Assembly (NCBI GenBank): GCA_024684065.1
Contig: JAIKXO010000100.1
Location: 1 to 21,955 of the forward strand
Direction of reading: 5' to 3'
Length of the DNA: 21,955 nucleotides
From: Lachnospiraceae bacterium
Lineage (GTDB): Bacteria; Bacillota_A; Clostridia; Lachnospirales; Lachnospiraceae
In this document: piece after piece, positions 10,217 to 13,522 of the stretch
Layout: every line of letters starts with the position of its first letter
Position numbering within the stretch: the stretch's first letter is position 1
Made by a program: the position numbers and the translations under genes
Notes under the pieces: model-generated
The model's database searches: none
Seen by the model: the letters and a program-made list of their open reading frames with translations, nothing else
What the model was told of the DNA's origin: nothing

Positions 10217-10948
10217 TCAGCCTTTATAGCCTATCTCGTCTGCGAGCTTCTTCTCGATCACGACTATGGCATCCCTGTGAAGACGCATAAAGGTCGCAGG
10301 GCACTTTGGATCGATCTTGTCATCCATAAGAAGCTTCTTAGCTGCGTCCTGCTTGTTACCGTTGATTATCATAAGCAGGGTTTTCGCCTTCATGATAGAA
10401 CCCATACCCATCGTCACGGCATATCTCGGAACCTCGTCGCGGCTTTCAAAGAACCTGGTATTGGCATCGATGGTGCTGTCCTCAAGGGTTTCCTTATGAG
10501 CCTTCTCGTAAAGGAATTCTCCCGGCTCATTAAAGCCCAGATGTCCGTCGGGCCCGACCCCGAGAACCTGAAGGTCGATATCCGTCCTGTCAAGGATATC
10601 ATTGAATTCCTTAAGATTTTCCTCTACATCTCCCGTCCCCTTTGCCACATAGGTATTGGCCTTGTCAATATTGATATGGTCAAAAAGGTTATCATCCATG
10701 AAAAATCTGTAGCTCTGGGGATGTGTAGGCTCAAGGCCCACATATTCATCAAGATTTACCGAATGAACCTTCGAAAAATCAAGTCCTTCCTCACTGCACC
10801 TCCTCGAAAGCTCCTTATACATTCCTACCGGGCTTGATCCCGTTGCAAGCCCCAAAGTACATTCGGGATTTTCCCTCACAAGCTTCTCAATGATATCTGC
10901 CGCCTTCTTTGCTCCTTCTTCGTAAGTCTCTGCAACTATCACCTTCAT
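10217..10948 (-). CDS. nagB: Glucosamine-6-phosphate deaminase
   Basis: A 243-residue NagB, the usual length for the short Gram-positive form without the E. coli allosteric tail. It converts glucosamine-6-phosphate to fructose-6-phosphate and ammonia. The phosphate-binding LATGSSPVGMY, the NLDEYVGL segment with Asp67, and GVGPDGHLGFNEPG with Asp134, His136 and Glu141 match the known E. coli catalytic residues Asp72, Asp141, His143 and Glu148. An excellent AGGAGGAG ribosome binding site lies just upstream. It is the third gene after glmM and the beta-helix protein on the same strand. The cluster therefore holds enzymes acting in opposite directions on the GlcN-6-P pool: GlmM draws it into cell-wall precursors and NagB returns it to glycolysis. 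Confidence 0.95.
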   Translation of the reverse strand: MKVIVAETYEEGAKKAADIIEKLVRENPECTLGLATGSSPVGMYKELSRRCSEEGLDFSKVHSVNLDEYVGLEPTHPQSYRFFMDDNLFDHINIDKANTYVAKGTGDVEENLKEFNDILDRTDIDLQVLGVGPDGHLGFNEPGEFLYEKAHKETLEDSTIDANTRFFESRDEVPRYAVTMGMGSIMKAKTLLMIINGNKQDAAKKLLMDDKIDPKCPATFMRLHRDAIVVIEKKLADEIGYKG

Positions 10949-11065: not shown

Positions 11066-11731
11066 TCAATCCTCTTTTGCGACTATATTCCCCGCATCCT
11101 TATATATACTGTTCTCCGGAACGACACCCCTGACGCTTGATACGGGATAAACGTTTGTGTCTCTTCCGATAACGGTCCCGGGATTTAATATGGTGTTGCA
11201 GCCTACTTCAACCCTGTCGCCAACTAAAGCGCCTACCTTCTTTCTCCCCGTTTCTATAAGCTCGTCACCGTTCTTTATCACGACAAGCTTCTTATCGGAC
11301 TTGACATTGCTCGTTTTGGACCCTGCTCCCAGGTGGGATCTGTATCCGAGTATTGAGTCTCCGACATAATTATAATGAGGAACCTGGACGTTATCAAAAA
11401 GTATAACATTCTTAAGTTCGGTTGAATTACCGACAACACAGTTATCTCCCACAAGAGCCGAGCCTCTGATAAATGCCCCGGGGCGTACCTCTGTTCCATG
11501 CCCTATTATACAGGGGCCCGCAATATAATTATTGGGATAAAGCTTTGCGTCCTTGGCAATCCACACGTCCTCCTGCGGATGGTCGTATTCATCAGGGCTT
11601 AAAGATGCACCTGTTTCAAGGATAAGCTCCTTTATCCCCTCTAACGCCTCCCATGGATACTTAAACTGCTTAAGGTAATCTGCAGCTTTAGTATGGGAAA
11701 GGTCATAAAGATCATTAATCGTCAGCTTCAT
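11066..11731 (-). CDS. Left-handed beta-helix acyltransferase-like protein (GlmU C-terminal-like, stand-alone)
   Basis: A 221-residue protein. I use the start at 11731 because GAGGAGG sits correctly upstream; an ATG at 11746 would place the ribosome binding site inside the coding region. Residues 1-50 are helical. From about 55 to 210 there are hexapeptide repeats (for example YIAGPCIIGHGTEVRPGAF) that build a left-handed beta-helix. VPHYNYVGDSILG keeps His119 at the position of the GlmU acetyltransferase catalytic histidine, and GAGSKTSNVK matches the GlmU GAGTITCNYDG stretch. A 20-residue insertion with KNGDELIETGRKK interrupts the helix, as in GlmU. The N-terminal uridylyltransferase domain of GlmU is absent. 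Lying between glmM and nagB, it probably acetylates or binds an amino sugar phosphate. Neither the acceptor nor the acyl donor is known. Confidence 0.8.
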   Translation of the reverse strand: MKLTINDLYDLSHTKAADYLKQFKYPWEALEGIKELILETGASLSPDEYDHPQEDVWIAKDAKLYPNNYIAGPCIIGHGTEVRPGAFIRGSALVGDNCVVGNSTELKNVILFDNVQVPHYNYVGDSILGYRSHLGAGSKTSNVKSDKKLVVIKNGDELIETGRKKVGALVGDRVEVGCNTILNPGTVIGRDTNVYPVSSVRGVVPENSIYKDAGNIVAKED

Positions 11732-11772: not shown

Positions 11773-13128
11773 TTATCCCCGAACCCTTATAAGATGGCCC
11801 GAAGTCTTCATCGCCTCGATTATCTCATCAACGCATTTTTCGCAATCTTTATAGGTTGAAGCCTCTGACATTACCCGGAGTACCGGCTCTGTTCCTGAAG
11901 CCCGAAGCAGCACCCGCCCGTCATTTCCAAGGAAGGCCGTGGTGTCGTCAACAGCCTTCTTAACGGCCTCATCCTCAAGGGTCGATTCCTTATCATCGAC
12001 CTCAACATTCTTCAGCACCTGAGGATACATCTTAACCTCTGATGAAAGTACCGAAAGAGGCAGCTGTGTCTCTACCATAACCGTCATAAGCATAATGGCC
12101 GTCACAAGACCGTCACCTGTATGGGCATATTTTCTGAATATAACATGTCCGGACTGTTCTCCGCCGATCATATGGTTATTAGCCTTCATATTCTCATAAA
12201 CATATCTGTCGCCGACCTTGGTCTTCTCATAATCGATGCCCGCGTTATCAAACGCCTTGTAAAGACCAAAATTGCTCATTATCGTGGTTACCACGGTATT
12301 GCTCGGAAGCATTCCCTTGCTCTTAAAATACTTGGCGCAGATATACATGATCGTATCTCCGTTTACGACATCACCGTACTCATCAACAGCCAGGCACCTG
12401 TCCGCATCCCCGTCAAAGGCAAAACCGACATCAACCTTATTCTCCCGGACATATTTCTGAAGCCCCTCGATATGTGTCGAGCCGGCATTCGCGTTGATAT
12501 TCATCCCATCCGGAGTATTATTCATTACATAGTTCTTGGCGCCCAGAGCGTCAAATACGGCACGTCCGATCATCCAGGCGCTTCCGTTGGCACAATCGAG
12601 CGCAACCTTGCGGTTTTCAAATGAAACAGGCGCTATCGAAGTAAGATATCCGATATATCTGTTTCTTCCCGAATAAAAGTCGATCGTCTGGCCAATCTTA
12701 TCCTCGATCGCGGGAGTAACCTCGGAAATCTCGCCGTCGATATAACGTTCCACCATATCCTGGACTTCATCCTCCATCTTCTCTCCCTCGGCATTCAGAA
12801 GCTTTATGCCGTTATCATAGAAGGGATTGTGGCTTGCAGATATCATAATACCGCAGTCAAAGCCTTCAGTCCTTGTGATATAGCTTACACAGGGCGTGGT
12901 AGTTACATGCAGAAGGTATGAGAGCCCTCCCGTTGAAGTGATGCCTGCGCTGAGCGCATTTTCAAACATATACGAGGACCGCCTTGTATCCTTCCCGATA
13001 ACGATCTTTGCAGGCCTCTGTTTGCTGTAATACCATCCAAGGAACTGTCCGATCTTAAAAGCATGTTCAGCTGTAAGCACAACGCCTGCTTTACCGCGGA
13101 ACCCGTCCGTACCGAAATATTTACCCAT
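11773..13128 (-). CDS. glmM: Phosphoglucosamine mutase (GlmM), internal start form
   Basis: A 451-residue GlmM of standard family length when started at the ATG at 13128, which follows a strong GGGGAGGAG ribosome binding site about 6 nt away. It interconverts glucosamine-6-phosphate and glucosamine-1-phosphate on the way to UDP-GlcNAc. MGKYFGTDGFRG is the canonical N-terminus, SASHNP carries the phosphoserine (Ser99), the FDGDADR metal loop lies near residue 238, GGEQSGH is the sugar-binding loop and RASGTEP (near residue 407) the phosphate-binding loop. The frame has no stop upstream and continues without interruption into a helix-turn-helix domain (see 13129-13335), so a 520-residue fused form is also possible. 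The next genes on the strand are the beta-helix acyltransferase and nagB. Confidence 0.93.
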   Translation of the reverse strand: MGKYFGTDGFRGKAGVVLTAEHAFKIGQFLGWYYSKQRPAKIVIGKDTRRSSYMFENALSAGITSTGGLSYLLHVTTTPCVSYITRTEGFDCGIMISASHNPFYDNGIKLLNAEGEKMEDEVQDMVERYIDGEISEVTPAIEDKIGQTIDFYSGRNRYIGYLTSIAPVSFENRKVALDCANGSAWMIGRAVFDALGAKNYVMNNTPDGMNINANAGSTHIEGLQKYVRENKVDVGFAFDGDADRCLAVDEYGDVVNGDTIMYICAKYFKSKGMLPSNTVVTTIMSNFGLYKAFDNAGIDYEKTKVGDRYVYENMKANNHMIGGEQSGHVIFRKYAHTGDGLVTAIMLMTVMVETQLPLSVLSSEVKMYPQVLKNVEVDDKESTLEDEAVKKAVDDTTAFLGNDGRVLLRASGTEPVLRVMSEASTYKDCEKCVDEIIEAMKTSGHLIRVRG

Positions 13129-13335
13129 TTTTCTCTCCTCCCCGGCGGAACCTGATCCGCCTCCCCTTGCTTCTTTTGTTCTTCCGTCATATGGCCGCTT
13201 CGCATCCTCGGGAATAAGCCAGAGCTTCCCTTCCTTTTTAGCGCCCCCGATCTTTCCGTCCCTGCACAGCATTGTGATACGTCTTTCGGCCATACTCCAT
13301 TTTCCGGCCGCCTCATGAACGTCAATAAATTTCAT
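13129..13335 (-). CDS. Helix-turn-helix (excisionase/MerR-like) domain fused in frame ahead of GlmM
   Basis: These 69 codons lead straight into glmM with no stop. The ATG at 13335 has its own AAAGGAGAG ribosome binding site. Residues 1-54 (MKFIDVHEAAGKWSMAERRI, then TMLCRDGKIGGAKKEGKLWL and IPEDAKRPYDGR) look like the small winged helix-turn-helix domain of the excisionase/MerR-like group widespread in Clostridia: helix, turn, recognition helix, then the GK(L/S)WLIP wing. Residues 55-69 are a Gly/Ser/Glu linker whose codons double as the GlmM ribosome binding site. Long (HTH-GlmM, 520 aa) and short (GlmM, 451 aa) products are both predicted. An ATG at 13422 is excluded because it lies upstream of the -10 box. 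The domain is a candidate self-regulator given the operator-like repeats at 13424-13522. A lost stop codon or sequencing error is the main alternative. Confidence 0.72.
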
Positions 13336-13400
13336 TTGGCTCTCCTTTGCTAAACAATGATCACATAGCAGATCACGGATCCAATCTATGTCACGATATA

Positions 13401-13429
13401 TTTGTACATCGGTGCGGGTCATTTGTCAA
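13401..13429 (-). promoter_or_regulatory. Sigma-A-type promoter of the HTH-glmM operon
   Basis: On the minus strand a perfect -35 TTGACA (13424-13429) is separated by exactly 17 nt from TACAAA (13401-13406, 4 of 6 matches to TATAAT). Transcription would begin near 13394, about 60 nt before the HTH start codon at 13335. The -35 is embedded in the first of the TRTCAAG half-sites, so a bound regulator would block polymerase. Confidence 0.65.
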
Positions 13430-13522
13430 GTTATTTTTCAAATTTTATATCAAGTTATAATTATATATCTTGACATTTGATTTTTATAACTTGATATATC
13501 ATAGTGTTTTTGTATTTTGACA
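13424..13522. promoter_or_regulatory. Operator-like array of TRTCAAG half-sites
   Basis: Five related 11-mers lie in 99 bp. TGTCAAGTTAT (13424-13434) and TATCAAGTTAT (13448-13458) point one way. TGTCAAGATAT (13465-13475), TATCAAGTTAT (13486-13496) and the weaker TGTCAAAATAC (13512-13522) point the other way. The second and fourth extend to a perfect 14-bp inverted repeat (13447-13460 and 13484-13497). Centres are about 24, 17, 21 and 26 bp apart, near multiples of two helical turns. The first overlaps the glmM-operon -35 box. This is the layout of a repressor operator. The binding protein is not shown, but the adjacent HTH domain is the obvious candidate. TTGACA-like sequence explains part of the similarity in three copies but not in the two TATCAAGTTAT copies. 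Confidence 0.6.

Follow-up and report, generated by a model that had tools for sequence, protein, structure and literature searches.

Some enzymes carry a DNA-binding domain, remain active and repress the genes of their own pathway, as is the case for BirA, NadR and PutA. In the ROK regulators NagC and Mlc an HTH is joined to a sugar-handling kinase fold, and NagC controls amino-sugar genes. GlmM, which makes glucosamine-1-phosphate for the cell wall, is normally treated as a housekeeping enzyme. A further design is BzdR, described in PMC3602430 as an XRE HTH placed on a shikimate-kinase fold whose enzymatic activity has been lost. The locus presented here suggests that in some gut and rumen bacteria an enzyme with a DNA-binding domain, in this case GlmM, probably controls its own operon.

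The DNA analysed (the window) consists of the 21,955 nt of contig JAIKXO010000100.1 from a Lachnospiraceae bacterium, and its features are collected in Table 1. The first-pass annotation of the window had described a glmM frame open upstream through an HTH-like domain to ATG 13335, with a Shine-Dalgarno of its own there and a strong ribosome binding site at the canonical GlmM start (13128). The frame proved to be uninterrupted over 520 aa down to 11773 and both ribosome binding sites were recovered. Another ATG is located further upstream on the minus strand, at 13422, where the frame is still open, but since the predicted -35 and -10 boxes flank this codon, ATG 13335 is the likely start.

Table 1. 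Features of the HTH-glmM locus in the window
Feature	Position	Strand	Basis
HTH-glmM, 520 aa, full-length product	11773..13335	minus	one open frame; 34 homologous fused loci
Winged HTH domain (Xis/MerR/BldC-like), residues 1-52	13180..13335	minus	AlphaFold model, Foldseek (weak E), dN/dS
Linker, residues 53-69; last codons encode the internal Shine-Dalgarno	13129..13179	minus	pLDDT <50
GlmM catalytic part, residues 70-520; predicted 451-aa short product	11773..13128	minus	TIGR01455; four in-clade unfused relatives encode just this part
Long-form Shine-Dalgarno AAAGGAGAG	13340..13348	minus	precedes ATG 13335
Internal Shine-Dalgarno GGGGAGGAG	13135..13143	minus	precedes ATG 13128; duplex energy -10.8 kcal/mol
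Hexapeptide (left-handed beta-helix) protein, like the acetyltransferase half of GlmU; second gene	11066..11731	minus	PF00132, 60.1 bits
nagB, glucosamine-6-phosphate deaminase; third gene	10217..10948	minus	PF01182
Putative operator array, six sites with at most one mismatch from TAWCTTGACA	13389..13522	minus	motif count, spacing
Array sites	13522..13513, 13496..13487, 13475..13466 (inverted), 13457..13448, 13433..13424, 13398..13389 (direct)	minus	
Predicted -35 box TTGACA, within the fifth operator site	13424..13429	minus	sequence prediction
Predicted -10 box TACAAA, 17 bp spacer	13401..13406	minus	sequence prediction

The enzyme part is a complete GlmM, matching TIGR01455 with 528.5 bits (cut-off 447.55) over model positions 1-441 of 442. 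An alignment of 43 of the 46 fusion proteins showed the motifs SASHNP, DGDADR, GEQSGH and RxSGTEP, which we take to be the catalytic serine and the metal, sugar and phosphate loops of GlmM, to be invariant or nearly so. The enzyme part has the same fold as, and 43-46% identity to, the ordinary GlmM structures of Bacillus subtilis (7ojr), Bacillus anthracis (3pdk) and Staphylococcus aureus (6gyz), which comprise about 445 residues and have no DNA-binding part.

The N-terminal extension stays below the cut-off of the profiles tried, with 17.6 bits for HTH_59 and 15.2 bits for HTH_17 (both cut-offs 27) and 12.9 bits for the excise profile (cut-off 28.8), while the HTH of one galactokinase fusion (L040, see below) passes HTH_17 with 33.3 bits. 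A search of PDB sequences with the HTH profile gave no match up to E 1. The structure prediction that had been proposed as a check yields a winged helix, with a mean pLDDT of 88-92 over residues 1-50 in the AlphaFold model and the predicted layout E3-5 H6-13 H17-26 E33-35 E38-42, i.e. two helices followed by a beta wing. The best PDB matches in Foldseek are lambda Xis chains, at weak E values from 0.12 (TM by target 0.74), with BldC (E 0.93) and a MerR protein further down and none reaching E <0.001. Among these closest solved folds Xis and BldC are both small proteins without an enzyme part, and cooperative multimeric DNA binding is reported for lambda Xis in PDB entry titles and for Streptomyces BldC in PMC5859096. 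The linker is predicted to be disordered and the model thus gives no evident allosteric coupling between the two parts. In 11 non-independent pairs, the HTH gave a dN/dS of 0.125, the linker (last 6 codons omitted) 0.55 and GlmM 0.028.

When analysing the end of the linker it was found that its last codons read AAAAAGGAGAAA..ATG, or a close variant, in most fused genes. The pairing of this internal Shine-Dalgarno with the anti-Shine-Dalgarno reaches -8 kcal/mol or lower in 33 of 35 fused genes, the exceptions being L030 and L031 (-5.6 kcal/mol); the same value is reached by 6% of 575 other in-frame ATGs, by 4% of random codon positions and by 60% of the upstream HTH starts. In synonymous recodings with pooled codon usage the mean was as strong in 0 of 500 sets (z -5.9, a value that is nominal only because the sequences are related). 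For individual genes, between 0.4% and 64% of the recodings were equally strong, making single genes mostly unremarkable, because the codons for Lys-Lys-Glu themselves resemble a Shine-Dalgarno. Lys-Glu is written AAG-GAG in 27 of 31 cases in the linker and in 35 of 143 elsewhere. In two genes (L026 and L029) the linker residues have changed to Lys-Gly-Arg and the DNA still reads AAAGGAAGG, which argues that the site is kept rather than the protein sequence. Among the 46 fusion proteins, the residue at the internal start is Met in 40, Val in five, possibly representing GTG starts, and neither in P0038.

An internal start that is a little-used relic of the fusion event, with only the long form of importance, is an alternative reading. 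A gene that once stood alone would be expected to begin with a strong Shine-Dalgarno, P0038 no longer has the internal start and the synonymous coding of individual genes is often not unusual. Such a relic is nevertheless improbable, as 33 of 35 genes retain the Shine-Dalgarno despite the dN/dS of the surrounding linker, including versions written in changed residues. The conserved site and start support the earlier proposal of two products from one frame, and we infer that both forms are produced.

To describe the distribution of the fusion, a protein search was performed with residues 1-100, giving 2407 matches at E <=0.001. Among the 120 of these that were listed, at least 45 clusters (P0002-P0046) start with an HTH-GlmM fusion; P0018, P0019 and P0021 among these are short or chimeric, P0019 terminating in the domains of another protein, and P0047 is a cut fusion. 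Contigs were scanned with the HTH part using a single peptide pattern, ERR[IV]T[MAL]LCR[DN], so that fusions with other letters are missed; L145 and L174, with the letters QRRIT, were recovered separately. The scan revealed 49 loci, of which 34 are HTH-GlmM and 12 HTH-galactokinase, together with L047, L048 and L049. All 34 HTH-GlmM records are titled Lachnospiraceae and most are metagenome assemblies, though the title of one, AC3007 (L005), carries no MAG label and presumably stands for a cultured isolate. The fused frame can be read to the GlmM stop in 32 of the 34, while the contigs of L009 and L011 end 231 and 79 residues into the frame.

A stop or frameshift between the HTH and GlmM in close relatives had been named in advance as a finding that would refute the proposal. 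Within this readable part none of the 34 loci has one, and the same uninterrupted extension is present at 34 further GlmM loci of the family. This rules out a single sequencing error or assembly artefact in the window.

GlmM copies were counted at E 1e-100 in 32 genomes jointly holding 33 of the fused loci. A single match was found in 31 of them (30 full and, in G009, a fragment) and three in G001, which is probably a mixed MAG. A second, housekeeping GlmM could accordingly be ruled out for most genomes at this threshold. Since 30 of 32 genomes have no full GlmM other than the fused copy, the fused gene must, as far as found, supply the enzyme, and mutase activity of HTH-GlmM is therefore expected from its genomic context. 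In a wider sample of the family 285 of 299 genomes have a GlmM match, at least two of those listed beginning at query residue 1, and in the genus of G005 14 of 48 genomes match at E 1e-150, eight of these 14 being fused.

Downstream of the fused glmM, nagB is found in 29 of 29 and the hexapeptide gene in 27 of 29 loci with enough sequence. In the window the hexapeptide protein matches the C-terminal part of TIGR03992 under its cut-off, NagB scores 231.6 bits with TIGR00502, slightly under the cut-off of 236.9, and the gene after nagB is on the opposite strand. A glmS gene is present in 31 of the 35 genomes tried (30 fused and five unfused) and lies directly past nagB on the same strand in eight of them (G004, G005, G019, G024, G025, G026, G027 and G032). 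NagB is usually catabolic, and its position in one operon with the biosynthetic glmM (13335-10217), joined by glmS in those eight genomes, would place both directions of amino-sugar flow under joint control.

When analysing the region upstream of the fused genes (300 bases each for 35 genes, 240 in L026) a repeated element, TAWCTTGACA, appeared. With at most one mismatch it occurs 131 times, 97 of them exact, against 1.7 expected from dinucleotide shuffles, and each fused promoter holds three to six sites, at least three in 35 of 35; the flanks of the same loci contain 88 sites in 390,704 bases. The motif was selected after inspection of these same promoters, which makes the unfused glmM genes the real control. 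The spacing is 21-24 bp for 39 of 44 pairs of neighbouring direct sites and 18-20 bp for 28 of 32 convergent pairs, about two helical turns. This putative operator array is new beyond the first-pass annotation, which had proposed a DNA-binding GlmM from the protein part.

In all 35 promoters the TTGACA of a direct site is followed, 16-18 bp on, by a best -10-like hexamer; TTGACA is the -35 consensus in itself, and the choice of promoter considered solely the TTGACA inside sites and spacers of 16-18 bp. In the window, L001, L010 and L019 one additional site is located further downstream of the chosen promoter, and in the window this site (13398..13389), downstream of the -10 box, may be a chance match. 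As one half-site holds the -35 box, binding would most likely block RNA polymerase and repress the operon. An activator, which would assist RNA polymerase where the -10 box is weak, would make sense of the chosen -10 being TACAAA, a poor match, in 21 of the 35 promoters, of the sites placed upstream of the -35 box and of the different promoter region of in-clade unfused relatives (see below), which the loss of an activator would need. However, the -35 box with its 16-18 bp spacer inside a site in every promoter, bearing in mind that only such TTGACA was considered, favours occlusion, and the long 19-bp spacer that goes with MerR-type activation is absent within the 16-18 bp examined. Activation is for these reasons regarded as unlikely, and repression is the reading followed below.

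Other elements were noted around the promoter. A terminator-like inverted repeat with a T-run was seen by eye upstream of HTH-glmM in L001, L002, L003, L010 and L025, among others; its left arm overlaps the -10 box, and in L001 it reads CTGCGGTACAAATG ... CATTTGTACCGCAG. At Rfam gathering scores the leader of glmM showed no riboswitch, and the one match in the window is a Clostridiales-1 RNA (RF01699; 13697-13863, plus strand, 77.2 bits, cut-off 48), situated divergently upstream of HTH-glmM; we know of no function for this family.

Genome-wide, 20 matches with both half-sites intact were found in 30 genomes and all of them, judged by eye, are on the contig of HTH-glmM. Four other direct-repeat matches were inspected, three of them inside open frames and one intergenic. 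The latter (G007 C167:1412-1440, L155) is a site pair with TAACTTGACA, flanked according to inspection by eye by genes for an Xre-like HTH and an ATP-binding-like protein; it is a possible second target of HTH-GlmM, and the glmM operon may thus not be the sole one. A palindrome, TGTCAAGTATTTTTTCTTGACA, which occurs exactly on either strand in nine of the 30 genomes (by eye), was ruled out as a site of the GlmM-type HTH, since it precedes ylxM-ffh in the four cases inspected (exact in L152 and L153, as variants in L154 and L163). These two genes were named by recognition, and as ylxM presumably encodes an HTH-like protein the palindrome may be a YlxM operator.

The same HTH is also present on other enzymes. 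Galactokinase domains were identified in all 12 HTH-galactokinase loci (L032, L033, L035, L036 and L038-L045), whose records are titled Clostridia, Clostridiales, Ruminococcaceae/Ruminococcus, Candidatus Flemingibacterium, one Bacilli and one Lachnospiraceae. In 7 of the 12 promoters the sequence T(A/G)TCA lies exactly 14 bases before TTGACA, forming a palindrome of the glmM half-site (two of these loci, L043 and L045, are near-copies); among 455 background TTGACA sites, mostly coding, the palindrome was seen at six. No obvious internal Met was seen by eye where the kinase part begins. L048 carries the HTH on an AAA-ATPase/nuclease. No protein of this HTH family other than HTH-GlmM was found in 17 of 28 genomes, and the remaining 11 have 14 further matches; the seven of these 14 that were inspected, in five genomes, are small stand-alone paralogues of weaker similarity and have no array.

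To compare fused and unfused genes a GlmM tree of 57 rows was made, with L011 and the too short L009 left out. The 35 fused rows form one clade (100/100) with four unfused rows, and the latter (L169 with L173, L171 and L188) are nested at three places, which can be read, from the tree, as one gain and three losses of the HTH; the starred branches require at least three changes and the best tree has four. In these four relatives the HTH is wholly absent, not broken, GlmM begins where the internal start lies and a different promoter region replaces the array. Their genomes retain glmM, the hexapeptide gene and nagB (the L171 locus stops 45 residues into nagB) and have no HTH of this family, bar one match in G376. 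In a larger protein tree the unfused P0066, P0068, P0069, P0085 and P0119 also fall inside the fused clade (support 85) and may be true losses or gene calls made from the internal start.

Two upstream sites were found in none of 22 unfused glmM genes and one site in four of them, and in a separate survey none of 29 unfused loci had more than one. The array thus accompanies the fusion, which argues for a DNA-binding GlmM as earlier proposed. Fused genes being one clade, a single ancestor could have had both HTH and array by chance, the array belonging to another regulator and the association reflecting shared ancestry alone. Against this, both HTH and array are absent in three nested lineages, all contrasts having the same direction (a sign test on three independent contrasts gives p 0.25, too few for significance), the same half-site precedes HTH-galactokinase and the intact half-site pairs are all on the HTH-glmM contig. 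Another regulator is accordingly considered very improbable.

Taken as a whole, HTH-GlmM is in our judgement quite likely to be a bifunctional autoregulator, probably a repressor, of its own amino-sugar operon, accompanied by a DNA-blind GlmM from the same frame; the comparative sequence evidence given above is the basis for this. One frame would give HTH-GlmM and, via the internal ribosome-binding site, plain GlmM. The long form would be a working phosphoglucosamine mutase that also binds the TAWCTTGACA half-sites before its own operon. Each GlmM dimer would present two HTH domains to half-sites separated by about two helical turns, and binding of several dimers could be cooperative; the cooperative DNA binding of Xis and BldC fits such a half-site array. 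Binding would depend on how much HTH-GlmM is present, or on whether the GlmM domain carries a ligand or a phosphorylated serine, and the short form, catalysing without binding DNA, may form mixed dimers that weaken repression.

A simple amount sensor, with repression proportional to its own level, no metabolite sensing and a short form that is merely enzyme supply, is a substantial possibility though one we hold below an even chance. Plain negative autoregulation explains the comparative evidence equally, and neither linker conservation nor the model gives a hint of allostery. On the other hand autoregulation alone would not require an HTH attached to the enzyme, and both HTH-galactokinase and a second type of GlmM fusion suggest that joining to the enzyme has been selected. 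In the latter (P0061 and P0122) an unrelated Xre-type HTH is fused to GlmM, and the design thus apparently had two separate origins; in P0122 Met is absent at the position of the internal start. HTH domains similar to this Xre type also occur on PF05685 proteins, presumably Uma2, and on PF00501/PF14535 ligase-like proteins. More tentatively, and short of what we would call probable, the winged HTH and its half-site would be a plug-in module that makes direct autoregulators of the sugar enzymes GlmM and galactokinase. In GlmM the feedback gain would then depend on translation, with DNA-binding and DNA-blind enzyme from one frame forming mixed dimers, and the ratio between the two starts would act jointly with the ligand state of the essential enzyme on the expression of the amino-sugar operon.

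If GlmM has both a DNA-binding domain and an operator of its own, the feedback from the synthesis of a cell-wall precursor to transcription would be very short, and a dual start would offer a simple genetic means to split the catalytic and regulatory roles of an enzyme. With domain and array so tightly associated, the claim of DNA binding can be tested directly.

The first-pass annotation knew of no regulator of this design. In the open PMC literature, as far as titles and the openings of abstracts among the matches listed go, neither HTH-GlmM nor HTH-galactokinase appears, so the statement stands for GlmM in that literature; as a class, enzyme-HTH autoregulators are known and to that extent it does not hold. 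HTH-GlmM shares with the ROK regulators NagC and Mlc an HTH on a sugar-handling fold, but it lacks the kinase fold, and no ROK match was found among its Pfam and NCBIfam matches up to E 1. Like BzdR, it has a metabolic enzyme fold and an HTH connected through a linker; unlike BzdR it keeps the catalytic motifs, and in 30 of 32 genomes no other full GlmM was found beside it. The closest likeness is to BirA, NadR and PutA, as HTH-GlmM has putative operator sites at the genes of its own pathway. It differs from these in its GlmM enzyme, its Xis/BldC-like HTH, its half-site array and a second start for a DNA-blind enzyme; HTH-GlmM would work like BirA, NadR and PutA, from different parts.
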